35,229 nucleotides of DNA from an uncultured Pelagibacteraceae bacterium (GTDB lineage: Bacteria; Pseudomonadota; Alphaproteobacteria; Pelagibacterales; Pelagibacteraceae). A program made the translations under genes and the position numbers. A model generated the notes under the pieces. The model searched no databases and was not told the origin of the DNA. It saw only the letters and a list, made by a program, of their open reading frames with translations. Within the stretch, counting starts at the first letter, position 1. Each line of letters starts with the position of its first letter. Shown here in pieces: positions 1,762-23,127 of this stretch. The stretch spans positions 1 through 35,229 of the forward strand of contig CACOXX010000009.1 in NCBI GenBank assembly GCA_902631265.1, written 5' to 3'.

Positions 1762-3381
1762 TTACATATTCCCGTATCTTGGACCACCGCTTCCTTCTGG
1801 TGTTACCCAGGTAATATTTTGAGAAGGTTCTTTGATATCACAAGTCTTACAATGAATGCAATTTTGAGAATTTATTACAAATTTAGGTACATCATTTTCG
1901 ACTTGCACTTCATATACACCAGCAGGACAATATCTTTGAGCAGGCTCATCAAATCTATCTAAGGTATATCTTATTGGTAAATCTTTATCTTTCAATTTTA
2001 AATGGACTGGTTGATTATCTGTATGATTGGTCCCTGTTAAATAAACTGAACTTGTTTTATCGAATGTAATCACATTATCAGGTTTCGGGTAATCTATTAC
2101 TGGCATCTCATTTGCTGGTTTTAAGGTTTCATGATCTGCGTGTTTATGTTTAAGTGTAAATGGTAATTTTCCCCTGAAAATTATTTGGTCTATACCTGTG
2201 AAAATAATTCCCAAGATTAATCCCCAACTAAAACTTGGTTTTACATTTCGTGCTTCGAATAATTCTTTATAAGCCCAGCTTTTTTTAAATTTTTCCTCAT
2301 AAATAGAGAGATCTTTAGACTCTTTAAGATGTTCATTTATAGTTTCCGCTGCAACTATTCCACTTTTCATTGCTGTATGAGAACCTTTAATTTTTGGCAT
2401 ATTAAGAGTACCTGCATCACATCCAATTAATAGTGCACCAGGCATAAACATTTTCGGTAAACTTTGAAAACCACCTTCGATTAAAGCTCGCGCTCCATAA
2501 GATATTCTTTTTCCTCCTTTCAGCATTTTACTAATTGCTGGATGAGTTTTAAATCTTTGAAATTCATCAAAAGGTGATAGATGAGGATTTTTATAATCTA
2601 GACCTATAACATAACCTAAATAAACTTCTTTATTTTCAGCATGATATACAAAGCTTCCTCCATAAGTATTTTTATCTAATGGCCAACCAGCTGTGTGCAT
2701 TACTAAACCCTCCTCATGGTTTTTTTCATCAATCTTCCAGATTTCTTTAAAACCAATCCCATATTGCTGTGGATCTTTTCCGTTATCTAATTCGAATTTT
2801 TTAATTAATTGTTTTCCTAAATGACCTCTACAGCCCTCTGCAAATACCGTCACCTTAGCATGTAATTCCATCCCAGGCTCATAACCATCTTTTTTGTTTC
2901 CCTCTTTATCTAAACCCATGTCCTGTGTTATTACACCTTTGACGGATCCATCTTCGTTGTATAAAATTTCTGAGGCTGGGAATCCCGGAAAAATTTCTAC
3001 ACCTAATACTTCTGCTTGTTCAGCGAGCCATCTGCATAAGTTAGCAAGACTTATTATATAATTTTTATGGTTTTGCTGGACTTTTGGTAGTAACCAAGTC
3101 GGCCAGCTAAATGAGCTTTTTTTTCCCAAGAAAAGAAATTTTTCTTTTGTTACTTTAGTCTTAATTGGTGCATTTAGATCTTTCCAGTTAGGAACTAGTT
3201 CATCTAATGCTCTAGTCTCAAAAACATTCCCTGACAAAATATGTGAACCAATTTCTGCACCTTTCTCTAGTACACATACATTAACGTCAGCGTTTAATTG
3301 TTTTAATTTAATTGCTGTTGCAAGGCCTGATGGTCCTCCACCCACAATAACAACATCATATTCCATAACTTCTCTAGTCAT
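1762..3381 (-). CDS. Electron transfer flavoprotein:ubiquinone oxidoreductase
   Basis: ETF-QO is an inner-membrane-associated FAD and 4Fe-4S enzyme that passes electrons from reduced ETF to ubiquinone. The 539-residue length is normal. The N-terminal dinucleotide fold is IVGGGPSGLATA (about 12-23). The C-terminal ferredoxin-like part has the four cluster cysteines C485, C508, C511 and C514 (QNCIHCKTCDIKEPSQN), and the family-typical ending GSGGPRYGNM. It is the last gene of a minus-strand run with the DMGDH-like gene, etfB and etfA; its start lies 3 bases after the etfA stop. That order puts a dehydrogenase, its electron carrier and the quinone exit in one transcript. Identity is very secure. 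Confidence 0.97.
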   Translation of the reverse strand: MTREVMEYDVVIVGGGPSGLATAIKLKQLNADVNVCVLEKGAEIGSHILSGNVFETRALDELVPNWKDLNAPIKTKVTKEKFLFLGKKSSFSWPTWLLPKVQQNHKNYIISLANLCRWLAEQAEVLGVEIFPGFPASEILYNEDGSVKGVITQDMGLDKEGNKKDGYEPGMELHAKVTVFAEGCRGHLGKQLIKKFELDNGKDPQQYGIGFKEIWKIDEKNHEEGLVMHTAGWPLDKNTYGGSFVYHAENKEVYLGYVIGLDYKNPHLSPFDEFQRFKTHPAISKMLKGGKRISYGARALIEGGFQSLPKMFMPGALLIGCDAGTLNMPKIKGSHTAMKSGIVAAETINEHLKESKDLSIYEEKFKKSWAYKELFEARNVKPSFSWGLILGIIFTGIDQIIFRGKLPFTLKHKHADHETLKPANEMPVIDYPKPDNVITFDKTSSVYLTGTNHTDNQPVHLKLKDKDLPIRYTLDRFDEPAQRYCPAGVYEVQVENDVPKFVINSQNCIHCKTCDIKEPSQNITWVTPEGSGGPRYGNM

Positions 3382-3384
3382 GAA

Positions 3385-4338
3385 TTATTTTTGAATACTA
3401 TTAAGTTTATTTAACTCTTCTAAAAATTGCGGGAGAGCTTCAAACAAGTCTGCTTCAAGCCCATAATCTGCTACGCTAAATATTGGTGCCTCACCATCTT
3501 TATTAATTGCAACAATAATTTTACTTTCTTTCATCCCAGCTAAATGTTGAATAGCGCCAGAAATACCAACTGCAATATACAAGTCAGGTACAACAACTTT
3601 TCCTGTTTGTCCAACTTGATGATCGTTAGTAATATAACCAGCATCTACTGCAGCTCTTGACGCTCCAATAGCTGCATTCAACTTATCCGCAATTGCCGAA
3701 ATTAATTTAAAGTTTTCTGAATTTTGCATACCTCTACCACCTGAAATTACAATTCTTGCTGTCCCTAACTCAGGTCTATCTGATTTTATTTCTTCTCTTT
3801 TTACAAACTTAGAATTTTTAAAGGACTCACCAGCTTCCGATTTTACGATCTCTGCAGAACCTCCAGTTGCTGGAGCAGGTTCAAAAGATGTTGGTCTAAT
3901 AGTTATACACTTTTTTTTATCATTACTTTTTACTGTAGCAAAAGCATTACCAGCATAAATTGGACGTAAAAAAGTATCGGCTGAAATAACTTTAATGATA
4001 TCACTTACCTGAGATGTGTCCAAAAGAGCTGCTATTCTAGGCATCAAATTTTTCCCAAAAGTATTTGCTGAGCAAACTATGTGTGAATATGCATCAGCAT
4101 GTTTTATTATTGCTGAGGTGTAATTTTCTGCAATGAAGTTTTCATAAATTTCGTTATCTATATGGATAACTTTTTTTACATTTGGTATTTCAGACGCAGA
4201 CTTAGCAACTGCCTCTGATTTATTACCCAAAACTAGAATATGTAAGTCCTCATCTATTTTGCTTGCAGCTGATACAGCATTATAAGTGAAGGGTCTTAAT
4301 TCTTTATTATTATGTTCTGCAATTAGTAAAACTGACAT
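3385..4338 (-). CDS. etfA: Electron transfer flavoprotein alpha subunit
   Basis: EtfA binds the FAD of the soluble EtfAB heterodimer that collects electrons from flavin dehydrogenases. The 317-residue protein has the C-terminal FAD domain signatures ISGGRGM, GASRAAVDAG, HQVGQTGK and YIAVGISGAIQHLAGM in the expected order. The N-terminal domain is the usual ETF Rossmann-like fold. The start overlaps the etfB stop by one base and the next gene is ETF-QO. In this operon the likely main electron donor is the DMGDH-like protein, although EtfAB normally also serves acyl-CoA dehydrogenases. Confidence 0.97.
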   Translation of the reverse strand: MSVLLIAEHNNKELRPFTYNAVSAASKIDEDLHILVLGNKSEAVAKSASEIPNVKKVIHIDNEIYENFIAENYTSAIIKHADAYSHIVCSANTFGKNLMPRIAALLDTSQVSDIIKVISADTFLRPIYAGNAFATVKSNDKKKCITIRPTSFEPAPATGGSAEIVKSEAGESFKNSKFVKREEIKSDRPELGTARIVISGGRGMQNSENFKLISAIADKLNAAIGASRAAVDAGYITNDHQVGQTGKVVVPDLYIAVGISGAIQHLAGMKESKIIVAINKDGEAPIFSVADYGLEADLFEALPQFLEELNKLNSIQK

Positions 4339-5087
4339 TATATTACTTTAGCCTCATTTTTTAATTTTTGAACCAGTTCTGATACATTTGCGACTTTAAT
4401 TCCAGCCTTTCTTTTTGGTGGTTCTTCTACCTTAATTTGCTCGATTCTTGCTTTAGTATCAACTCCTAAATCTGAAGCATTTATTTGTTCTAATGGTTTT
4501 TTCTTTGCTTTCATTATATTTGGTAATGAAGCATATCTAGGCTCGTTTAATCTTAGATCACAAGTAACGATTGCAGGTATATTTACCTCGATTGTCTCTA
4601 AACCTTCATCAACCTCTCGAGTAACTTCAAGTGACGATTCTTTAACATTAATTTGAGATGCAAAGGTCGCTTGTGGCCAATTGAGTAAAGCAGCCAACAT
4701 TTGACCTGTTTGATTACAATCATCATCTATTGCTTGTTTTCCCATAAAAACTAAATCAGGTTTTTCTTTATCTACTATTTTTTGCAAAATTTTCGAAACA
4801 GCCAAAGGTTCAACTACTCCATCAACCTTTACATGTATTCCTCTATCAGCACCAACCGCAAGAGCTTTTCTTACTGTTTCTTGAGCTTTTTCTTCACCAA
4901 TAGTTATTGCTACAATTTCTTTTGCTTTTCCAGACTCTTTAATTTTTACCGCTTCTTCAACAGCATTATCGTCGGGAGGATTGGTAGACATTTTAACATT
5001 ATCTGTGACTACTCCAGTTCCGTCTTCTTTTACTCTTACTTGGACGTTGTAATCTATTACTCTTTTGACTGCGACTAAGATTTTCAT
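4338..5087 (-). CDS. etfB: Electron transfer flavoprotein beta subunit
   Basis: EtfB pairs with EtfA and carries the loop that docks onto partner dehydrogenases. The 249-residue protein starts [14 protein letters not shown] and has [27 protein letters not shown] and the docking-loop region [13 protein letters not shown] near residue 190, all typical of group I EtfB. It overlaps both neighbours by one base (stop of the DMGDH-like gene at 5087, start of etfA at 4338), so translation is coupled and a fixed subunit ratio is likely. Confidence 0.97.
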
Positions 5088-7519
5088 TATGCCCTTAATA
5101 ACTCATTTTTTGGATCATAAGGACTTTCTTCAAGGATAGTTGCCTCATGAGTTTTTCCCAAAATATCAATTTTAAGTTTTTGACCAACATTTGCCAATTC
5201 TGGTTTAACCATTCCAAGAGCTATAGATTTTCCTAATCTAAAACCAAAATCTCCACCAGTGGCTCTTCCAATACAAGTTCCATTTTCATAAATTGGATTA
5301 TTTCCAAGCACATCAGCATCGGAAATATTATGAACTTCAAGTGTCACTAATTTATTATTAAATCCTTTTTCTCTCCATTTGTTTAAAGCATCTAGGCCAA
5401 TAAAATTTCCTTTATTTGGATGTATAAATCTATCTAAACCACTTTCGTATGGGGAGTATTCTATAGATAATTCTGTTCCAACTAATTTATACGATTTTTC
5501 AACTCTTAAACTATTCATTGCTCTAATGCCGTATGGTTTTAAATTTAAATCTTTGCCAGCATCCATTAATTTATCAAAAATGTGATTTTGATATTCGATT
5601 GGATGATGTAATTCCCAACCTAATTCCCCAACAAAGTTTACTCTCATTGCATTAACAGGAGCATAACCCACGTCAACATTTTTAGCACTTAGCCATTTAA
5701 AATTTTCGTTAGAAAAATCATCTTTTGATACTTTTGTCATTAAGTCTCTTGCTTTTGGTCCAGAGACAACCAACACACCCATGCTGTTAGTTAAATTTTC
5801 AAACTGAACAGATCCGTCATTTGGCATCCATCTTAAAATCCAATCATGATCAAGTCTTTGAAAAGCACCCGCAGATACTAAATAAAAACTGTCTTCAGCT
5901 TCTCTCATAATTGTAAATTCTGAATGAACGCCACCTTTAGTGTTTAGCGCGTGGCATAAATTTATCCTTCCAATTTTTTTCGGAAGTTTGTTTGCAACTA
6001 GTTTATCCAGAAACTCTTCTGCTTTTGGTCCTTTTATTCTACATTTGGCAAATGCACTCATGTCTAGTAAACCTACATTCTCTCTTACATTCTTGCATTC
6101 TTTCTCAATAGCTTGAAACCATTTTGATCTTCTAAATGACCAATCATCTTTTTGTTCCATTCCATCAGTTGCAAAAAAGTTTGGTCTTTCCCAACCAAAT
6201 TTTTGACCAAAAACTGCTCCAAGTTTTTTCATTCTGTCATAACATGGTGCTGTTCTTAGTGGTCTTGCTGCTGGTCTCTCTTCATCCGGAAAATGTGTTA
6301 TAAAAACATGGCTGTATGCCTCTTCATTTTTTTCTTTGAGATATGCTTTCGAACAATAATCTCCATATCTTCTTGGTTCTACACCAAGCATGTCAATTGT
6401 TGGTTCTCCATCTACTATCCATTCTGCCAACTGCCAACCAGCACCACCAGCTGCAGTTATTCCAAAACTATGTCCTTCATTTATCCAAAAATTTTTAAGC
6501 CCCCATGCTGGTCCTACAATTGGATTTCCATCTGGAGTATAACAAATTGCACCGTTGTATACTTTTTTTACTCCTACCTCACCAAAAGCTGGGACTCTAT
6601 GTATTGCGCCTTCTATGTGTGGGGCAAGTCTATCTAAATCTTCTTGAAATAATTCATATTCTGAATCTTTTGAAGGTCCATCAACATAACATGCTGGAGC
6701 TCCATCTTCATAAGGACCTAATATTAAACCTCCAGCTTCTTCTCTCATATACCATCGACTATCACTGTCTCTTAAAACTCCCATTTCAGGTAAACCCTCT
6801 TTTTTTCTTTTTTGAATTTCAGGATGTGGTTCAGTAACAATATATTGATGTTCTACAGGAATGACTGGAATGTCTAGACCAACCATTTTTCCTGTTTGTC
6901 TAGCAAAATTTCCTGAACAAGAAATAATATGTTCGCACTCAATTGAACCTTTGTCTGTTTCAACTACCCATCCATCTTTAGTTTGTTTCATACCAACTAC
7001 CGTGGTGTTTCTATAAATCTCTGCACCTCTATTCCTCGCCCCTGTAGCTAAAGCTTGTGTTAAATCAGCGGGCTGAATGTATCCATCCTCTGGGTGTTGA
7101 ATTGCACCAACTAAATCTGAAGTATTACATAAAGGCCAAATTTCTTTTACCTGATCTGGAGTCAAAAATTTTACATCAACGCCAATAGTTTTTGCAACTC
7201 CTGCATATTGAAAATACTCATCCATTCTATCTTTATTATTTGCAAGTCTAATATTTGAAACAACACTGAAGCCAACGTTCTTACCCGTTTCTTCCTCTAA
7301 TTTTTTATATAAATTGACTGCATATTTGTGGAGTTGTCCAACGGAATAACTCATATTAAAAAGTGGTAACAAACCTGCAGCATGCCATGTTGATCCAGAA
7401 GTAAGTTCTTTTCTTTCAACTAAAACAACGTCTGACCAGCCTTTTTTAGCAAGATGATAAAGGGCGCTAACTCCTACAACACCTCCACCGACTATTACGA
7501 CTTTTGCTTTAGATTTCAT
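5087..7519 (-). CDS. Dimethylglycine/sarcosine dehydrogenase-like FAD enzyme with GcvT domain
   Basis: This 810-residue protein has the DMGDH/SarDH layout. A DAO-type FAD domain (about 5-370, [15 protein letters not shown] near the N-terminus) is followed by a FAO linker (about 375-430), a GcvT tetrahydrofolate-binding domain (about 435-690) and a GcvT C-terminal barrel (about 700-795). STWHAAG places H46 where the mitochondrial enzymes attach FAD covalently. The enzyme would oxidatively remove a methyl group from dimethylglycine or sarcosine, hand the C1 unit to THF, and pass electrons to ETF. The downstream etfB, etfA and ETF-QO genes, overlapping or nearly so, strongly support ETF as acceptor rather than oxygen. 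Sequence alone does not let me choose the substrate. Confidence 0.9.
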
Positions 7520-12647: not shown

Positions 12648-13376
12648 ATGAATTTTTCTATAGAAATTGGACCTAAAACAGATCTATCAACTCTGCCGGA
12701 ACTAAAAGATGTCTATATAACAATGTTGCCAGGTGGGGATTTTAAAGAGACAGCAAATCAAGCTGTCCAACTAGTAAAGAAAGGCTTCAACCCTATCCCC
12801 CATTTTCCAGCAAGATCAATGGAGAATGAGCGACAGTTAAAAGAGTATGTGAGCATCTGTAAAGATGGGGGGGTTAAACAGGCTTTAATTATTGGAGGGG
12901 GTCGTGAACCAGCTGGTAAATTTGATAGCTCATTTCAACTTTTAGAGACTGGTTATTTTGAGAAGATGAAGATAGGAATTGCTGGACATCCTGAGGGGAG
13001 TCCTGATATATCCGACTCAGATTTGGAAAAAGCTATGCAAGATAAAAAGCCTTATGCTGATTATATAGTAACTCAATGGTTACTTGATCCTCAGCCAATC
13101 ATAGATTTTATTTCTAAACAAACAGTGCCAGTGCATGTTGGAATTACTGGGCCTCTTAAGATATCAAGCTTAATAAAATTTGCTAATATTGTAGGTGCAA
13201 AAAATTCCATAAATTTCCTTAAATCTAATTTTAGTAAGGCTCTAGATTTATTGAAACCTAAAGACCCAAATGATCTAATTGATAAATTAAAAGATCATAC
13301 AGAATACTTTCATATTTATACATTTGGAGGACTTAAGGAAACAAACAAATGGTTAAAGGATAATAACTATGCCTAA
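12648..13376 (+). CDS. Divergent methylenetetrahydrofolate reductase-like protein
   Basis: This 242-residue protein looks like a short, divergent MTHFR-type TIM barrel. SIEIGPK (4-10) stands where MetF has its FEFFPPK motif with the catalytic glutamate, here E6. HFPARSM, KQALIIGGGREPAG and KIGIAGHPEGSPD follow the MetF order. Its C-terminus ends HIYTFGGLKETNKWL. MetF proteins interconvert methylene-THF and methyl-THF using FAD. The stop overlaps the start of the DmdA/GcvT-like gene by eight bases, so the two proteins probably act together: one moves a methyl group to THF, the other oxidises methyl-THF to methylene-THF. Canonical MetF is about 290 residues, so a different cofactor or direction is possible. 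Confidence 0.8.
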   Translation: MNFSIEIGPKTDLSTLPELKDVYITMLPGGDFKETANQAVQLVKKGFNPIPHFPARSMENERQLKEYVSICKDGGVKQALIIGGGREPAGKFDSSFQLLETGYFEKMKIGIAGHPEGSPDISDSDLEKAMQDKKPYADYIVTQWLLDPQPIIDFISKQTVPVHVGITGPLKISSLIKFANIVGAKNSINFLKSNFSKALDLLKPKDPNDLIDKLKDHTEYFHIYTFGGLKETNKWLKDNNYA

Positions 13377-14829
13377 AAAAAAGAAAAAAAAGAAAGTAAG
13401 TTCGAAAAAAAGAAAACCAAAAAAAGTAGTTAAAGTAAAATCTAAGAAAGTCAGTAAGCCAATGTCAAAAGGCAGAATAATTGAGAAAGTAGATTATTCA
13501 AAAGTTACTCATTCTACCGCTGTTGATCAATCTGATAGACATGTTCCATACAATTTAAGACAAAGTGGTCCAACTCAAGTTGAAATGTTAATTTCTACAA
13601 GAGTTAGAAAATCTCCTTACTGGCATTTATCTATGAAAGCTGGATGTTGGAGAGCAACTGTTTACAATAGAATTTATCATCCACGAGGTTATGTAAGACC
13701 AGAAAAAGGTGGAGCGATGGTTGAATATGAGGCTATTAAAAAACATGTAACAATGTGGAATGTAGCAGTTGAAAGACAAATAAGAGTAAAAGGTCCAGAT
13801 GCTGAAAAATTTACAGACTACGTTATTACAAGAGATGCAACGAAAATTTCTCCAATGCGTGCTAGATATGTAATTTTATGTAATTACAAAGGTGGTGTCT
13901 TAAATGATCCTATTCTATTAAGAATATCTGAAGATGAATTTTGGTTTAGTTTATCGGATAGTGACATTGGTCTTTATCTGCAAGGTGTTAACGCTGACAA
14001 AAGATTTAATGTAGAAATTGATGAGATAGATGCATGTCCAGTTCAAATTCAAGGTCCAAAATCTAAGGCTTTGATGAATGATTTAATAGGAAATCAAGTT
14101 GATTTAGACAACATGCCTTTTTATGGATTAGCTGAAGCTAAAGTTGGAGGGAGAAGTTGTGTGATTTCACAATCAGGTTTTTCAGGTGAAGCTGGATATG
14201 AAATTTATTTAAGAAATGCAACTTTATATGCAGAGGATATGTGGAATGCAGTTTTAAAAGCTGGAAAAAAACACAATCTAATGGTTATCGCTCCTGCCCA
14301 CCACAGAAGAATACAAGCAGGTATTTTATCTTGGGGTCAAGACATGGATAACGAGCATAATCCATTTCAATGTAACTTAGGTTACCAAGTTTCATTATCT
14401 GGAAAAGGCGTTTGGGAGAAACAAGGAGACTATGTTGGTAAAGAAGCCTTGGAAAAAATGAAAAGTGAAATATCTGCTGGAGGAAAACCTTACAAACTTC
14501 AGCTAGTAGGAATGGAACTTGGGGGAAAGCCAATTGAAGAATATGCGCCAGATTTTTGGTTAATCTCAGAGGATGGAAAAAATCCAGTAGGATTTATTAC
14601 ATCACCTTGGTACCATCCAGAAAAAGGAACTAATATTGCGATGGGGTATGTACCGTTCGATGGAACTTTAAATAAAAACGGTTTTCCGATGGGTAAAGTT
14701 GGAAGAAAATTCAAAATTCATCTTCCAAAGAAATACTGTGAAAAAGGAAGTGATCCAGTTGATGCTGTAGTTGTTGATATACCTTTTACAGAATCATACA
14801 ATCCAAATACAAGAGAAGTAGCTAAATAA
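13369..14829 (+). CDS. DmdA/GcvT-like THF-dependent methyltransferase with lysine-rich N-terminus
   Basis: Residues about 50-480 follow the aminomethyltransferase (GcvT) layout and resemble DMSP demethylase DmdA: LISTRVRKSPYW, TVYNRIYHP, KKHVTMWNVAVERQIRVKG, GGVLNDPILLRIS and DEFWFSLSDSDIGLYL. It differs from DmdA in length (486 versus about 370), so I do not assign DMSP as substrate. It would transfer a methyl group to THF; the MTHFR-like partner gene overlaps it by eight bases. The first 35 residues are mostly lysine. I keep the start at 13369 because AAAGGA lies 8 bases upstream; a second ATG at codon 32 has a weaker site and would remove the tail. A strong terminator follows. Confidence 0.85.
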   Translation: MPKKKKKKKVSSKKRKPKKVVKVKSKKVSKPMSKGRIIEKVDYSKVTHSTAVDQSDRHVPYNLRQSGPTQVEMLISTRVRKSPYWHLSMKAGCWRATVYNRIYHPRGYVRPEKGGAMVEYEAIKKHVTMWNVAVERQIRVKGPDAEKFTDYVITRDATKISPMRARYVILCNYKGGVLNDPILLRISEDEFWFSLSDSDIGLYLQGVNADKRFNVEIDEIDACPVQIQGPKSKALMNDLIGNQVDLDNMPFYGLAEAKVGGRSCVISQSGFSGEAGYEIYLRNATLYAEDMWNAVLKAGKKHNLMVIAPAHHRRIQAGILSWGQDMDNEHNPFQCNLGYQVSLSGKGVWEKQGDYVGKEALEKMKSEISAGGKPYKLQLVGMELGGKPIEEYAPDFWLISEDGKNPVGFITSPWYHPEKGTNIAMGYVPFDGTLNKNGFPMGKVGRKFKIHLPKKYCEKGSDPVDAVVVDIPFTESYNPNTREVAK

Positions 14830-14988: not shown

Positions 14989-15534
14989 ATGTTTGGATTT
15001 TTTTTAGAATTAGTTTTCAGATCAATAAAGCTTGACAAAAAACTTTATAGAGAAGTTAAAACTTTCTCTGAAGTTTCAATTTATTTTGCTGCTATTATAA
15101 TGATACTAGATGGTGTTGCGGGGGCAATTGCTACCAATAATTTTTACAAAACTTCATTAAGTCTCTCGGCATTAACTGCTATCTTGACTTGGTTTTTTTG
15201 GGCAGTTTTGATATTTACAATTGGTGCCAAAATTTTTCCTGATAAAGATACCAAGGTCACTTTTAAAAAAATTTTAATTGCAGTAGGTATTGCTCATGCC
15301 CCTGGATTACTAAGATTTATAGCATTGACACCTGACTTAGTAATGCCAATAATTTTTTTAACTCAATTTTGGATATTTGCCTCATTAATAATTTCAACTA
15401 AAGAGGTATTAAATTTTAAATCAAATATTAAAGCTTTTGGAATAGTCTTTTTATCTTTTTTAATATTAGCAATTCTATCTGTTTCTTTTGTGATGAGCAG
15501 ATTAAATAGTTTACCAATTAGTAATATTACTTAA
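14989..15534 (+). CDS. YIP1-like integral membrane protein
   Basis: This 181-residue protein has about five hydrophobic segments (about 28-50, 60-80, 98-112, 120-137 and 148-170) and an N-terminal amphipathic stretch. The layout matches small bacterial YIP1 domain proteins, which have no known biochemical role. Its start directly follows the stop of the 34-residue membrane peptide. Its end overlaps the stop of the convergent zinc-ribbon gene through a shared TTAA. Assignment to YIP1 is by topology and the IGIAHAPGLLRF-type segment (VGIAHAPGLLRF), so moderate. Confidence 0.72.
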   Translation: MFGFFLELVFRSIKLDKKLYREVKTFSEVSIYFAAIIMILDGVAGAIATNNFYKTSLSLSALTAILTWFFWAVLIFTIGAKIFPDKDTKVTFKKILIAVGIAHAPGLLRFIALTPDLVMPIIFLTQFWIFASLIISTKEVLNFKSNIKAFGIVFLSFLILAILSVSFVMSRLNSLPISNIT

Positions 15535-15680
15535 ATAGGAAATATAGTTTTAGAAATCTTACAAGAGGCACAAATTTTATATCCAAACATTAATAAATTT
15601 TGAGAAACACTTTCATCTTCGCAACCACATTCTTCACAATAGTCATCGAGATGATCTTTATCATTTTTAATCTCAGTCAT
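15531..15680 (-). CDS. 49-residue zinc-ribbon protein
   Basis: The minus strand encodes a 49-residue protein, MTEIKNDKDHLDDYCEECG, with cysteines in CEECGC (C15, C18, C20) and CASC (C37, C40). Two CxxC knuckles 18 residues apart are what a small zinc ribbon needs, similar to the finger of DksA/TraR proteins. AGGG lies about 10 bases before the ATG. The start overlaps the stop of the DUF3726 gene by eight bases, so it is the fourth member of a coupled cassette. Such small metal-binding proteins often act as regulators or as metal or protein adaptors. Its role here is unknown. Confidence 0.75.
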   Translation of the reverse strand: MTEIKNDKDHLDDYCEECGCEDESVSQNLLMFGYKICASCKISKTIFPI

Positions 15681-16281
15681 TATCAGTCAACCCTGCGCCA
15701 GCTGAAGTTTTTTTTGATCTTTCTGTTTCATCAACAAAAGTTTTTTGTGATATTTTATATAAAGAATCCCATGTTTTTTCATCAAAGCTATCCTCGTTTT
15801 GATTAAAACTAATTAAAAAGTTTGTTGTTTTTGAAATTAGTGAATTATCGAAATTTGAAATTATAGATTGGTTAAAATTAAATAAAAATTTGAAATTTTC
15901 TAAATTCAATAAAATTTTTTTACCAATTATCTCTGATGACCTTGATAAAAATGGGACAACCAAAAGAGGATAAGCAAGATTTGAAAAATTTATATTTTCA
16001 ATTTTTTCTAAGTTATAAGCTTGATCCAAGAAATTTACACCTACGCTGATTGGACAATAAGGAATGTTATTAGAAATGTTGTCAGGAGATATTATTGTTA
16101 TCTTTTGATAGTTATGATTATTAATTTTCTCTAAATAGTTTTTCAAGTGTAAGATGCCTGGCAGACCAAACATCTCTAACAATCTGACCGACTTTCCAAT
16201 TTCTTCTGAAACACCCCATGAGAAACCTGCTCCTCTAGACGCTCTCTTAGATATTGTCTCTATTTCACTAAAAGATCTCAT
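15673..16281 (-). CDS. DUF3726 family protein
   Basis: This 202-residue protein begins with SEIETISKRASRGAGFSWG and VSEEIGKSVRLLEMFGLPG, which matches the N-terminal pattern of the DUF3726 family (helix, RGxGxxWGxxEExG, then a second helix). No enzyme motif is evident and no function for the family is known to me. It lacks a signal peptide. The start overlaps the stop of the 553-residue gene by one base (TAATG), and the stop overlaps the start of the zinc-ribbon gene by eight. The C-terminus ends KKTSAGAGLTDND. Confidence 0.8.
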   Translation of the reverse strand: MRSFSEIETISKRASRGAGFSWGVSEEIGKSVRLLEMFGLPGILHLKNYLEKINNHNYQKITIISPDNISNNIPYCPISVGVNFLDQAYNLEKIENINFSNLAYPLLVVPFLSRSSEIIGKKILLNLENFKFLFNFNQSIISNFDNSLISKTTNFLISFNQNEDSFDEKTWDSLYKISQKTFVDETERSKKTSAGAGLTDND

Positions 16282-17942
16282 TAATTTAATGAATTATAAA
16301 TCCAATTGTCGTTAAATTGTTTTAGCTCATCAGGTAATGGAGCGCCTTGAAACATACAAATTCTAAGCCATTTGTCAGATCTTGGATCGAATTTACAAGC
16401 TCCAAAAAAAGAAAGTTTAAGTCTAAGCATGTCAATTGGCATTAACTCTGAGCCAATTATATTATCCTGAATTTCTGAATAAGGAAATTTTTCTACCATA
16501 AAAACTCGTCTCACAGCATGTCTTAGATCGTTATTGTCCGCAAGAAATCTACTTACTGTCATACTGTTCTTAAGATTTTTTATTCTTAGATAAAGAGATT
16601 TGACATCCCGAGCGATTGCTAACGGTTGTTCAAGTTCAGATCCTATTTCTTCAAACCTGTTAGCTACTCTTGGCTCTTCTTTATTTTTTGAAATGAACCA
16701 AAAGTTCTGAATATTTTTATCTTCATTAAAATCAATATTCAATATTTCTGTATAATTTTTTTCAATAATTGTACGTAAATCTTCAATCTTTCTTTCAACT
16801 GGAATATTAAAAAATTTTTCTTCGTCGGCGCTCATAGTGGGAGTTAATTGGTCAACAATTTCATCATAAGGTTCAAGGAACAAGCTGACTACATACTCAA
16901 TACTCTCTTCTGTAAGATTCGTATCTACCCAACTAAAAATTATATTAAATGAGTACTCTTTTTTTTTATCGAATTCTTGTTCTAAATATTTAATGAATTT
17001 AATGAGATCTATCTTTAGATTTTTTATTTTTTCTTTTTGATAATCACTATCTGTGTTCCAAGTATTTATATTATTTATAGAATTCTTTAGACATTCAAAA
17101 AAATAATTGAAATCTTCTTGTTTTACATCTTTAATCTCCCTTATTTTTTTTAAAGCAGTTTCTCTTGCTAATATCCAATTATTAAGAAGTATTGGATGAT
17201 TGACTATAAACGGTGCCATTCCTAATCCAGTAGAATTTCCAATACCTAGACTTCTTGCAATATTTTTATCCAGTTCAATAGCTTTTCTCGGATTTTTATT
17301 TTTTGAGATAAAATTTACTTGATCAATTGTAAATTGTCTTACAAAATATACCAACATCATTTCTAGTCTAAAGGGGCCATGAATCTCTGGTCTATTTTTT
17401 ATTCTAAACCTATCAGCTAAACCAAATTTACCAGATCCATATACTGCGGTAGTTCTGTATAGATATCCTATTTCAGATAACTTTTTAGTAGAGGGTTGGT
17501 TGCCATTCGATAAACATTCTACAACATAATTAAAAGCTCTCATTGATTTATTTGCTCTGGATAAAGTCAATTCCTTATAAGTCATTCTTCCTATTTCTTG
17601 TCGCGGAACATTTAATGATAATCTTTCAATATCTTTTTTTGTTGGAATACCATCAAACAAAGTAAATGACGCGTCCCATTTTGTTGCTATTACCCTATCT
17701 GATCTTTCATTATCATCTAATTTGTTTGCAAAACAAACTAGGGAATATTTTCTTTGTTCTTTTTTAAATGAGTAAACGGCAACACCATATCCATCATTAT
17801 CTAGTTCAAATAATTCTCTTTTATAATCCCAGGAATTGAACTCTCTCAAAAAAGATCTTAAAAATGAAAGTTTTGATTGGTGGAAAGAACCAAGACGTTT
17901 TAATTTCATTATTTTTTTTGGGTCTCTTAATTCAATTTGCAT
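16281..17942 (-). CDS. Conserved 553-residue protein, unknown function
   Basis: I do not recognise a named domain in this 553-residue protein. It is soluble, with no signal peptide or membrane segment. A glycine-rich segment, SLGIGNSTGLGMAPF (231-245), could bind a nucleotide or cofactor, and YLYRTTAVYGSGKFGLADR precedes it by about 50 residues. The C-terminal half is helical and charged (KNSMTVSRFLADNND, EKFPYSEIQDN) and ends near GACKFDPRSDKWLRICMFQG. It overlaps the dipeptidase-like gene before it and the DUF3726 gene after it by one base each. Its length and uninterrupted frame make it a real gene; its job is open. Confidence 0.85.
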   Translation of the reverse strand: MQIELRDPKKIMKLKRLGSFHQSKLSFLRSFLREFNSWDYKRELFELDNDGYGVAVYSFKKEQRKYSLVCFANKLDDNERSDRVIATKWDASFTLFDGIPTKKDIERLSLNVPRQEIGRMTYKELTLSRANKSMRAFNYVVECLSNGNQPSTKKLSEIGYLYRTTAVYGSGKFGLADRFRIKNRPEIHGPFRLEMMLVYFVRQFTIDQVNFISKNKNPRKAIELDKNIARSLGIGNSTGLGMAPFIVNHPILLNNWILARETALKKIREIKDVKQEDFNYFFECLKNSINNINTWNTDSDYQKEKIKNLKIDLIKFIKYLEQEFDKKKEYSFNIIFSWVDTNLTEESIEYVVSLFLEPYDEIVDQLTPTMSADEEKFFNIPVERKIEDLRTIIEKNYTEILNIDFNEDKNIQNFWFISKNKEEPRVANRFEEIGSELEQPLAIARDVKSLYLRIKNLKNSMTVSRFLADNNDLRHAVRRVFMVEKFPYSEIQDNIIGSELMPIDMLRLKLSFFGACKFDPRSDKWLRICMFQGAPLPDELKQFNDNWIYNSLN

Positions 17943-18910
17943 TAACTAATACCTTTGTAAAAATTATACCAGTTATTACCCAGTATTCCATTAATCTCAT
18001 CCAAATTAAATCCAATTTTTTTAAGTCCACTCTCAATATTTTTAAATCCTCTAGCATCTTTAAACCAACTGGGTTGGTCCGGAAAGCCTACATTATTCAC
18101 TGTTCCTTCTCCGTAAACCTTTTTTTTTGTCCAAGTTCCATTCCTCATCCATTCTACGATCTCATCTGGCTGGTTTAAACACAAGTCTGAACCAATACCT
18201 AGATTTTTTACATCCATTATTTCAGCAGTCCTTGCAACCATTTCACAAAAATTATCTAATTTACAATTTGAATTTTCATTAAGATGATGAGGGTAAAGAG
18301 AAAATCCTAACATGCCCCCACTTTGAGATAATGTTTTAAGCAAATCATCTGACTTATTTCTTTTTGCTTTATGCCAAAACTTTGGGTTAGAATGAGTTAT
18401 TGCAATTGGTTTTTGACTTAATTCAATTGCATCAAATGTGCTTTTTTCACCTGAATGGGACATATCAATAACGATACCAACCCTATTCATTTCTTTTATC
18501 GCTTCTTTGCCAAAGTTTGTGACACCACTATCAATTTTTTCATAGCAACCAGAGGCTAATAAGGATTGGTTGTTATAAGTAAGTTGCATAAATCTACAGC
18601 CAAGTTCATGAACCTTTTCAACAAGATTTATATCATCCTCAATTGGTGAACAATTTTGAAACCCAAAAAATATCGCAGTTTTGTTATTTTTCTTAGCTTT
18701 CTCAATGTCTCTAAAGTCTTTTCCCAAGAAAATTAAATCATCATGGTTTTTAAAGTGTTCTTTCCATTCTAAAATTCTTTTTTGTAATTCATCAAAATCT
18801 TCATGGTATACTATTGTGACGTGAACTGCGTCTAGTCCAGCCTCACGATTGATTTCAAAAACTGACCTATCCCATTTACAATATTGCAAGTTGTCAATTT
18901 TGAAATTCAT
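17942..18910 (-). CDS. Membrane dipeptidase (M19) homologue with altered metal site
   Basis: This 322-residue protein follows the M19 renal dipeptidase fold: LGCRFMQLTYNNQSLLASG, GIVIDMSHSGEKS, KPIAITHSNPKFWHKA and LGIGSDLCLNQPDE. The histidines of the second metal site are present (H152, H173), as is the GSD aspartate (D242). The N-terminal HxD motif is absent (the protein starts MNFKIDNLQYCKWDR), and the bridging glutamate position reads Q85 in GFQNCSP. Classical two-zinc chemistry is therefore unlikely. I chose the start at 18910; the longer frame to 19006 would run through the purE promoter and into purE. There is no signal peptide. It is first in the overlapping four-gene cassette. Confidence 0.85.
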   Translation of the reverse strand: MNFKIDNLQYCKWDRSVFEINREAGLDAVHVTIVYHEDFDELQKRILEWKEHFKNHDDLIFLGKDFRDIEKAKKNNKTAIFFGFQNCSPIEDDINLVEKVHELGCRFMQLTYNNQSLLASGCYEKIDSGVTNFGKEAIKEMNRVGIVIDMSHSGEKSTFDAIELSQKPIAITHSNPKFWHKAKRNKSDDLLKTLSQSGGMLGFSLYPHHLNENSNCKLDNFCEMVARTAEIMDVKNLGIGSDLCLNQPDEIVEWMRNGTWTKKKVYGEGTVNNVGFPDQPSWFKDARGFKNIESGLKKIGFNLDEINGILGNNWYNFYKGIS

Positions 18911-18958: not shown

Positions 18959-19447
18959 ATGAAACTTAAAAAACATCAAAAAATAGCAATTGTAATGGGT
19001 AGTCAATCAGATTATTCAACTATGAAAGATTGCGTAAAAATTTTCAAAATTTTAAAAATTAGTTTTGATTTGAAAATTGTATCAGCGCATAGAACGCCAA
19101 AAAGACTTTATGAGTTTGCGAAAAAATCAGAGACTAGTTATTCAGTGATAATCGCTGGAGCTGGTGGATCTGCACATTTGCCTGGCATGATAGCCTCTTT
19201 AACAACTGTCCCAGTTATTGGGGTCCCAGTTGAAAGTAAAAAACTAAAAGGTCTTGATAGTTTATTATCAATAGTTCAGATGCCAAAAGGTATTCCTGTT
19301 GGAACTGTAGCGATAGGAAGAGATGGTGCAATTAATGCTGCTCTATATGCTGCGTCTATTCTTGGGATAACTGATAAAAAAATAAAAAATTCCTTGCTGA
19401 AATTAAGAATTAAACAAACAAAATCAGTGAAAAAAAAACCAAAATAA
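18959..19447 (+). CDS. purE: N5-carboxyaminoimidazole ribonucleotide mutase
   Basis: PurE moves the carboxyl group of N5-CAIR to give CAIR in purine synthesis. The 162-residue protein has the class I signatures [13 protein letters not shown] (near residue 10), [22 protein letters not shown] and PVIGVPV. It ends with a short lysine-rich tail (about 148-162, VKKKPK) beyond the usual helix. purK follows after 3 bases, as in many bacteria, which confirms a class I PurE that needs PurK. Confidence 0.97.
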
Positions 19448-22014: not shown

Positions 22015-23127
22015 TTAAGTCTTTTTTTCTATGACAAATAACTCGTTTTTAAAGTGTAAACCTTTGTGCTTATTGACCACGTTTTGAACAACCTTTTGGT
22101 AATTCTTATGTTTTTCTGCTTTCATTATTTGTTCTTCAGATATTTGATTGACGTAAACAGCGGCATTCCACGCAGAAAATATTAATGATGTAGCTATTCC
22201 ACCACTAATTTCATTAGGCAGTGCTCTCAAAACATAGCTTATTTTTTTTAATTTATGAAATTTTAGAGATTTTAATAAAGATTTTTCTGTATTTAATTTA
22301 ATGTATTTTTCAATCGATGAGTACAAATATGGAAATGGATTTTCTTTAGGCCATATCTTTTTAATTATTTTGTTCGCTGGATCTTCACCACAAGCGTGTA
22401 CCACAACTAACTTTCCTTTTTTTGCTAAAGATTTAATCATTGGTTCAATTACATATTTTACCTTTTTTTCTGCAGTTACTCTTGATCTATAAGGTTGAGA
22501 GGCAATAATTAAATTATAATCAGTTTTTCCGTTATTTTTTTTTGGTATTACATCCTTGAGAACAAATTCTTGGTCTTTTCTATAAATAACAATCACAGAT
22601 GGCTCTTTATAAGTTGATGTTCCTGTTTTTGGATTAGTTTCAACTTGCCATTTTTTAGCTAAAAATTCTTGGTTAAGTTTTCTTAATTGATTTGAAAAAT
22701 CTAAGGAAGAGTTTCCTTTAAGCTTTACAACTTTCCAATTCATTTTTTTTTGTTTTTTAACATTCCTTGATTTTAAAAATGTTGATTCTACATAATTCAA
22801 GTTTGAAATAACAAAAACAGTATTTTTATGCTCGGCAAATCTGTCAGGAAGTTTCTCTAAACCTAATCTCACGTCTTCCATGCTTATCTCTTTAGTAGAA
22901 ACCAATAACGGTATATTAGGCATTTTTTGGTGACATTGTCTCATCACATTCATTAATAAAGAGCCGTCGCCCATTCCAGCGTCAAAAATTTTTAATGCCG
23001 GATTTTTAGGTTTCAAACTCTGGACAATTGGTTTTAAAGCATCAGCAATTTTATTTTTTTCATTAGTTGTAGTTACAAAAAGAAGATATTTTTGTCTATT
23101 ATCAAAAAACCTGAAATTTTTTTTCAT
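22015..23127 (-). CDS. SAM methyltransferase-like protein, unknown substrate
   Basis: This 370-residue protein has a class I SAM motif, KIFDAGMGDGSLLMNVM (about 46-62), and much later NLIIASQPYRSRVTAEK and GKLVVVHACGEDP, which sit where motifs IV and V would be. The roughly 100 residues between them are an insertion rich in lysine (NVKKQKKMNWK). The SQPYR segment recalls the NPPY-type active site of amino-group methyltransferases, but I do not recognise the family. There is no signal peptide. It faces fhs across 95 bases and ends 10 bases from the GNAT gene stop. Confidence 0.75.
   Translation of the reverse strand: MKKNFRFFDNRQKYLLFVTTTNEKNKIADALKPIVQSLKPKNPALKIFDAGMGDGSLLMNVMRQCHQKMPNIPLLVSTKEISMEDVRLGLEKLPDRFAEHKNTVFVISNLNYVESTFLKSRNVKKQKKMNWKVVKLKGNSSLDFSNQLRKLNQEFLAKKWQVETNPKTGTSTYKEPSVIVIYRKDQEFVLKDVIPKKNNGKTDYNLIIASQPYRSRVTAEKKVKYVIEPMIKSLAKKGKLVVVHACGEDPANKIIKKIWPKENPFPYLYSSIEKYIKLNTEKSLLKSLKFHKLKKISYVLRALPNEISGGIATSLIFSAWNAAVYVNQISEEQIMKAEKHKNYQKVVQNVVNKHKGLHFKNELFVIEKKT

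Follow-up and report, generated by a model that had tools for sequence, protein, structure and literature searches.

A conserved homarine pathway, in which Mgd takes part, is cited in the accessible part of PMC13390433 from a 2026 study (Ferrer-Gonzalez et al., Nat Microbiol 11:1531). In dimethylglycine catabolism, according to the accessible part of PMC12093977, a predicted dipeptidase gene and a hypothetical gene precede dgcAB in Vibrio natriegens and Pseudomonas aeruginosa. Here we compare with these systems a cassette of four genes on the minus strand of a 35,229-nucleotide stretch of DNA (the window; contig CACOXX010000009.1) from an uncultured SAR11 bacterium of the family Pelagibacteraceae, an abundant kind of ocean bacterium. 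In order, the genes encode an M19-like protein, a protein of 553 residues (the 553 protein), a DUF3726 protein and a small ribbon-like protein. We found that the first three genes are inherited together as a genuine unit, and their membership of one pathway is well supported. We read this trio as the central part of a module that breaks down a small ring betaine bearing an N-methyl group, with homarine (N-methylpicolinate) as the most likely substrate, and we put the probability of that reading at roughly 0.58. The homarine operon described in 2026 is reportedly named homABCDER, is said to occur in SAR11 and is said to lead to N-methylglutamate and glutamate.

Three genes inherited as one unit

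The 553 protein matched 33 of 240 genomes of the class, and the DUF3726 profile matched 27 of these 240 genomes and none of 14 control genomes. All 27 DUF3726 hits had a 553 hit no more than about 100 bases away. A 553 match stood without a DUF3726 match in six genomes (G057, G074, G077, G084, G088 and G122), in which the copies were fragmentary or divergent. We then took the surroundings of the 553 gene at 27 loci, in stretches no longer than 20 kb, and compared them with 20 control stretches, the latter hand-chosen places in 19 of the same genomes. The 27 loci came from 26 of the 32 other 553-positive genomes of the class, with a second copy in one of these; G064, G071, G074, G077, G088 and G173 were left out. 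An M19-like gene was present in 24 of the 27 stretches and in none of the 20 controls (Fisher p = 1.8e-10). When 11 genomes were checked separately, including the three whose stretches were without the gene, ten contained an M19-like match somewhere; in those three the match lay elsewhere at 40-54% identity, and the sole genome without a match is 68% complete. In addition, a Mesorhizobium plasmid encodes 553 and DUF3726 fused as one protein of 814 residues.

The same arrangement was found within SAR11, for which all counts out of 80 refer to the best 80 of 584 relatives of the 553 family in a scan of named genomes. These 80 are 66-98% identical, and almost all carry the name Pelagibacteraceae, Pelagibacter or Pelagibacterales. 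The order M19-553-DUF3726 was present at 80 of 80 loci, a few copies being cut by contig ends. At one place in a SAR11 single-cell assembly (L098:10001-11656), the 553 frame contains an internal stop, which is either an assembly error or a broken copy. The 553 family matched 68 of 197 genomes of the family Pelagibacteraceae and, among the matches listed, 45 of 50 other genomes of the window's genus, the 50 being the genomes shown in the table, with 109 genomes without a match unlisted. Across 398 genomes of the phylum, it also matched nine that belong to other classes. A scan of viral contigs found no relative.

The preliminary description of the window had proposed that all four genes form one pathway or complex. 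That proposal holds for the first three as an inherited unit, given the linkage of DUF3726 and M19-like genes to 553 and the fusion, and is not supported for the ribbon protein, which lies outside the conserved system. We looked for the opposite pattern, in which the genes mostly occur separately, and found them side by side. It is thus exceedingly improbable that the four are chance neighbours in one operon with no functional link: gene overlaps are, as general knowledge has it, common in small genomes, but here the linkage holds across classes of the phylum and extends to a gene fusion, which refutes chance for genes 1-3. The ribbon protein falls outside that refutation.

The ribbon gene was present in 72 of the 80 SAR11 loci. 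Among 35 loci (most of the others with flanks of 1.5 kb), we found it only in the window and in a relative of the same genus, and it looks like a SAR11 addition outside the general system. Its product contains two CxxC pairs, whose four cysteines are invariant in 22 of 22 aligned sequences (alignment A6 drew on 21 of the 72 ribbon-bearing SAR11 loci), and gave only a sub-threshold match in Pfam. The description of this protein as a tiny zinc ribbon agrees with the cysteine pairs; zinc binding is putative.

Operon partners and the probable substrate

Outside SAR11, the trio occurs in larger operons. LysR, aldehyde dehydrogenase (ALDH), M19, 553 and DUF3726 genes were present together in all eight annotated main-type plasmids that we opened (Mesorhizobium, Sulfitobacter, Phaeobacter, Tritonibacter, Aliiroseovarius, Ruegeria, Shinella and Aminobacter). 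In six of these plasmids, the gene after DUF3726 encodes an Ldh-family oxidoreductase; four have a BCCT transporter gene, two have glycine-betaine-type ABC genes next door, and one has purU. Across the class loci, an operon-type Ldh gene was found in 12 of 27 stretches compared with 0 of 20 controls (Fisher p = 3.3e-4); among these 12, L116 has the gene on the other strand, and L134 and L136 have genes of 36-38% identity. Similarly, an ALDH gene at no less than 50% identity was found in 7 of 27 compared with 0 of 20 (Fisher p = 0.014). Six of the nine positive genomes from other classes were fetched, and in each of them the ALDH, M19, BCCT and 553 genes are consecutive; DUF3726 was detected in five and LysR in five, one stretch starting inside the ALDH gene and so hiding any LysR. 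In Caballeronia (Betaproteobacteria), M19, 553 and DUF3726 were found by profile. The full set of ALDH, regulator and transporter at one locus, as drawn up from these neighbourhoods, thus occurs in roseobacters, rhizobia and other classes. The Phaeobacter inhibens DSM 17395 plasmid (NC_018291.1) has two 553-like places, and its cassette adjoins a dimethylsulfoniopropionate demethylase gene.

The nearest solved structure to the operon Ldh is Δ1-piperideine-2-carboxylate reductase (1wtj, E = 6.9e-56; next, 5e-43), which acts on a six-membered ring that contains nitrogen and bears a 2-carboxylate. The operon ALDH scored best, below the cut-offs, against models of 2,5-dioxovalerate (α-ketoglutaric semialdehyde) dehydrogenase (478.6 of 750 bits), and the transporters belong to betaine types by annotation or by score, partly below curated cut-offs. 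Together, a LysR regulator, an ALDH, a betaine transporter and an Ldh2 protein resembling piperideine-carboxylate reductase suggest the degradation of a ring betaine. Their chemistry, leading from a ring 2-carboxylate betaine to a glutarate with nitrogen on its alpha-carbon, would fit the conversion of homarine to N-methylglutamate. Because that conversion requires the loss of C6, we infer that an N-formyl intermediate, oxidation by the ALDH and deformylation would be a natural route. The earlier guess that the cassette handles a cyclic or amide-bonded small molecule is in keeping with these partners.

From these data we infer a substrate, an order of steps and a role for each protein. In the full operons, the betaine-type transporter would import the zwitterion, and the 553 and DUF3726 proteins, as one complex, would attack the ring. 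The N-acyl (N-formyl) or lactam intermediate so formed would be the substrate of the M19-like protein. The ALDH would then oxidise a product of the glutarate-semialdehyde type to N-methylglutamate, one carbon leaving as formate, and sarcosine-oxidase-like enzymes would strip the methyl group. In SAR11, the remaining steps would fall to unlinked general enzymes.

The size of the homarine operon, reportedly five genes and a regulator, equals that of LysR-ALDH-M19-BCCT-553-DUF3726, or of the same set with Ldh in place of BCCT; SAR11, in contrast, holds just M19-553-DUF3726 and the ribbon gene. Because the complete operon probably corresponds to the 2026 homarine operon, it is doubtful that the cassette is, as the preliminary description put it, the best candidate for an undescribed system; it probably forms the core of a homarine-type pathway that was described recently, and would then not be entirely new. 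Four points are new here: DUF3726 is predicted to fold like Ldh2, the M19 site is altered throughout the aligned subfamily, SAR11 carries a stripped version with a ribbon gene, and there is a divergent module, described below.

Several observations weigh against homarine as the substrate. The identity of this operon with the published one is presumed from its fit. No close operon-type ALDH was found in the source genome, which is 72% complete (30-39% identity), or in a complete SAR11 relative (30-35%), and a close ALDH was missing from 8 of 10 cassette-bearing genomes that we chose. In eight SAR11 genomes of our choosing, a search made without a positive control gave no BCCT match (0 of 8), and the Ldh2 proteins were distant (28-35%). 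The full set at one locus is thus absent from SAR11. Among the six loci of other classes, none contained Ldh. Genes for N-methyl metabolism, betaine transport or one-carbon (C1) metabolism were present in 12 of 27 class loci compared with 4 of 20 controls, a difference that is not significant (p = 0.074). Sequence support for the likeness of DUF3726 to Ldh2 is weak (hhalign probability 0.4-26%). Finally, the accessible part of one study has R. pomeroyi growing more poorly on homarine than on trigonelline (PMC8269262); rapid drawdown of homarine by R. pomeroyi appears in the accessible part of another (PMC12817926).

These gaps bear on a second explanation, in which, in SAR11 and core-only genomes at the least, the same three-protein machine acts on a different betaine or N-methylated amino acid, such as proline betaine, an N-methylproline or a compound resembling dimethylglycine. 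We consider this unlikely, though it is the most serious competitor. In its favour, SAR11 has the core with no close ALDH or BCCT, and many other genomes have it with no adjacent ALDH. A divergent cassette, found in Alloyangia (L150), Bosea (L151) and S. meliloti pSymB (L147), likewise speaks for it. This cassette consists of a 553-like gene (its product about 29-31% identical to the Phaeobacter 553), a gene for a protein of 231-251 residues and an M19-like gene. The protein at the DUF3726 position was not matched by the DUF3726 profile; its start and tail appear similar by eye. In the two annotated records, IclR precedes the cassette and the genes of a multi-gene ABC transporter follow it; one of the two also encodes a Rid protein and a flavin (FAD) oxidoreductase. 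The divergent cassette suggests that the three genes are probably a module that is reused for more than one substrate. The SAR11 neighbourhood, with its sarcosine-oxidase-like and DmdA-like genes, and the dimethylglycine-dehydrogenase-like and ETF genes of the window also favour another substrate, as does the dipeptidase gene of the dimethylglycine operons. For those operons, the accessible part of the paper names DgcA, DgcB and ETF as partners, and neither a 553 nor a DUF3726 protein (PMC12093977). Opposing another substrate, the operon Ldh points to a 2-carboxylate on a six-membered ring and the operon ALDH to a glutarate semialdehyde, yet SAR11 is without those very genes. The SAR11 substrate is less certain than that of the full operons, and may be homarine, degraded via unlinked enzymes, or another betaine.

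Predicted features of the cassette proteins

The M19-like protein matched PF01244 (M19) with E = 2.7e-71, and the nearest solved structure to its family profile is 2i5g (E = 2.5e-78), presumably the P. aeruginosa gene of the dgcAB operon. The dimethylglycine operons and the cassette thus both contain a dipeptidase-like gene, and we take the two products to belong to the same M19 subfamily. Residues Q85, H152, H173, R184 and D242 are invariant in 27 aligned sequences. Compared with renal dipeptidase, the two histidines, the arginine and the late aspartate are kept; the histidines presumably bind metal, and our assignment of roles to the arginine and the aspartate is likewise presumed. Q85, in contrast, aligns with the glutamate of renal dipeptidase that we take to be the metal-bridging residue, and the presumed N-terminal HxD motif of M19 has apparently become an invariant leucine and tyrosine in an alignment made by eye. 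A complete binuclear metal site, presumably HxD, the bridging glutamate and two histidines, is therefore absent from the M19-like protein. The preliminary description had noted a dipeptidase homologue with a damaged metal site; the damage is real, and is a trait of the subfamily rather than of this copy. Judged from the alignment, the M19-like family has lost the metal-bridging glutamate.

The DUF3726 protein matched PF12525 with E = 1.1e-21 (77 bits; cut-off 22.1), and its structure model reached a pLDDT of 87.7 and a pTM of 0.79. The alignments behind the structure models held the window and SAR11 loci only, in 46 and 47 rows (A4 drew on 46 of the 80 loci, with L098 dropped for its interrupted 553 frame, and A5 on 45 of 80); the diverse alignments A1-A3 were excluded. 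In VIA-align, 15 entries of type-2 malate/lactate dehydrogenases (Ldh2) scored Z 9.2-11.3, and the next row Z 3.9. Superpositions aligned 155-176 residues at a root-mean-square deviation of 3.1-6.2, and Foldseek placed the Ldh2 family on top with an E-value of just 2.7e-3. In the top VIA-align row, DUF3726 residues 1-162 pair with positions 2-270 of the chain (159 pairs), so that about 110 residues of the Ldh2 fold are missing. The model thus shares the fold of the Ldh2 family (AllD, YiaK and Δ1-piperideine-2-carboxylate reductase) but is without those residues and without the SHG motif near the N-terminus, which was found in 0 of 23 DUF3726 proteins and in 6 of 6 operon Ldh proteins. In hhalign, DUF3726 against Ldh gave E = 0.0076 (0.15 with the SAR11 alignment and 7.4e-4 with 14 Ldh rows); the N-termini were in register, and in the comparison with 14 Ldh rows Ldh ranked first among 11 non-self profiles. 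None of 23 DUF3726 members hit an Ldh family in Pfam. We propose that DUF3726 has a predicted fold of a truncated Ldh2 type. Among the papers searched, none mentions DUF3726.

For the 553 protein, we found no Pfam family and no credible relative in the PDB by sequence, as anticipated by its earlier description as a protein with no recognised domain; NCBIfam scans were also blank, and searches of family libraries with 30 members returned weak hits of single members only. The AlphaFold model has a pLDDT of 74.4, which falls below 50 in many of the best-conserved loops, and fold searches gave no credible match (Foldseek best E = 0.87; VIA-align best Z = 4.2). With middling model confidence and no credible fold match, we draw no conclusion on its fold or chemistry. 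In 30 diverse sequences, 76 residues of the 553 protein are invariant, many of them charged or polar, and it is the likely new catalyst of the cassette.

The altered M19 and DUF3726 proteins raise a third explanation, that both are pseudoenzymes which assemble, load or regulate another methylamine enzyme as an accessory or maturation complex. The loss of the metal-bridging residue throughout the M19-like alignment, the absence of SHG from DUF3726 and the ribbon protein in SAR11 all agree with it. We nevertheless judge it improbable: the invariant charged and polar residues of 553 resemble those of active sites, and the linkage is to catabolic operons with transporters. A more specific form of the catabolic reading remains tentative, and is in our view rather doubtful. 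In this form, the 553 protein would have a new fold and, together with an Ldh2-derived obligate partner of reduced fold and no SHG, would make up a new kind of enzyme that opens or reduces the ring of N-methylated heterocycles; the M19 scaffold, having lost metal ligands, would do something other than peptide hydrolysis; and SAR11 would carry this core alone, with a dedicated ribbon subunit.

The SAR11 version and its surroundings

The open reading frame (ORF) coordinates bear out four overlapping minus-strand genes, as first described, with overlaps of 1, 1 and 8 bases. The ORF caller extends gene 1 to a TTG at 19006; its homologues start near the ATG at 18910, the start chosen at the outset. 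None of the four proteins reached the cut-off of an NCBIfam model. A scan for promoters and terminators gave results close to those of shuffled sequences (25 versus 20.9, standard deviation 3.7; 1 versus 1.1). The source genome comprises 828 kb in 43 contigs.

Features of the window discussed in the text (positions in nucleotides)
Feature	Position	Strand	Remarks
Gene 1, M19-like amidohydrolase-fold protein	17942-18910	minus	322 aa, ATG start; related to 2i5g, metal site altered
Gene 2, 553-residue protein, core of the cassette	16281-17942	minus	no Pfam or NCBIfam family, no credible PDB relative
Gene 3, DUF3726 protein	15673-16281	minus	202 aa; PF12525; predicted truncated Ldh2 fold
Gene 4, ribbon-like protein, two CxxC pairs	15531-15680	minus	49 aa; looks like a SAR11 add-on
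MTHFR-like gene and DmdA/GcvT-like gene	12648-14829	plus	overlapping; MTHFR-like match sub-threshold; DmdA/GcvT-like protein with lysine-rich N-terminus
Dimethylglycine-dehydrogenase-like protein, two ETF subunits, ETF-QO	1762-7519	minus	operon-like
370-aa protein	22015-23127	minus	between GNAT gene and formate-tetrahydrofolate ligase gene

With no close accessory genes found, we regard the SAR11 cassette as a stripped version made up of the three core genes and the ribbon gene, and we do not file the cassette of the window as a complete hom operon. Outer neighbours are common to 58 of the 80 SAR11 loci: purE lies on one side, and a gene for a 181-residue membrane-type protein and a DmdA-like gene lie on the other. 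Near the cassette, a DmdA-like gene was present in 69 of 80 loci, an MTHFR-like gene in 67 and a sarcosine-oxidase-alpha-like gene in 57. The MTHFR-like and DmdA/GcvT-like genes may be linked in function to the cassette. The SAR11 surroundings abound in C1 genes, which in the window include these two, the dimethylglycine-dehydrogenase-like and ETF genes and formate-tetrahydrofolate ligase, and the gene set at 1762-7519 is consistent with methylated-amine oxidation in the source genome. We could not separate the sarcosine-oxidase-like neighbours in SAR11 from N-methylglutamate dehydrogenase, as the six that were scanned exceed the broad soxA/soxB subfamily cut-offs. The 370-residue protein, encoded in 7 of the 80 SAR11 stretches, had no match in Pfam or NCBIfam. 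Among the papers searched, none joins 'renal dipeptidase' and SAR11.

Homarine is a major algal metabolite. It made up as much as 3% of particulate carbon in one ocean transect, according to the accessible part of that report (PMC8269262); a later author correction states, in its accessible part, that homarine concentrations had been overstated (PMC10134881). Our analysis gives DUF3726 a concrete, testable predicted fold, and it names as a likely new catalyst the 553 family, a large protein family without a known fold. With the cassette in 45 of the 50 listed genomes of the genus, SAR11 may be a sink for homarine or a related betaine.

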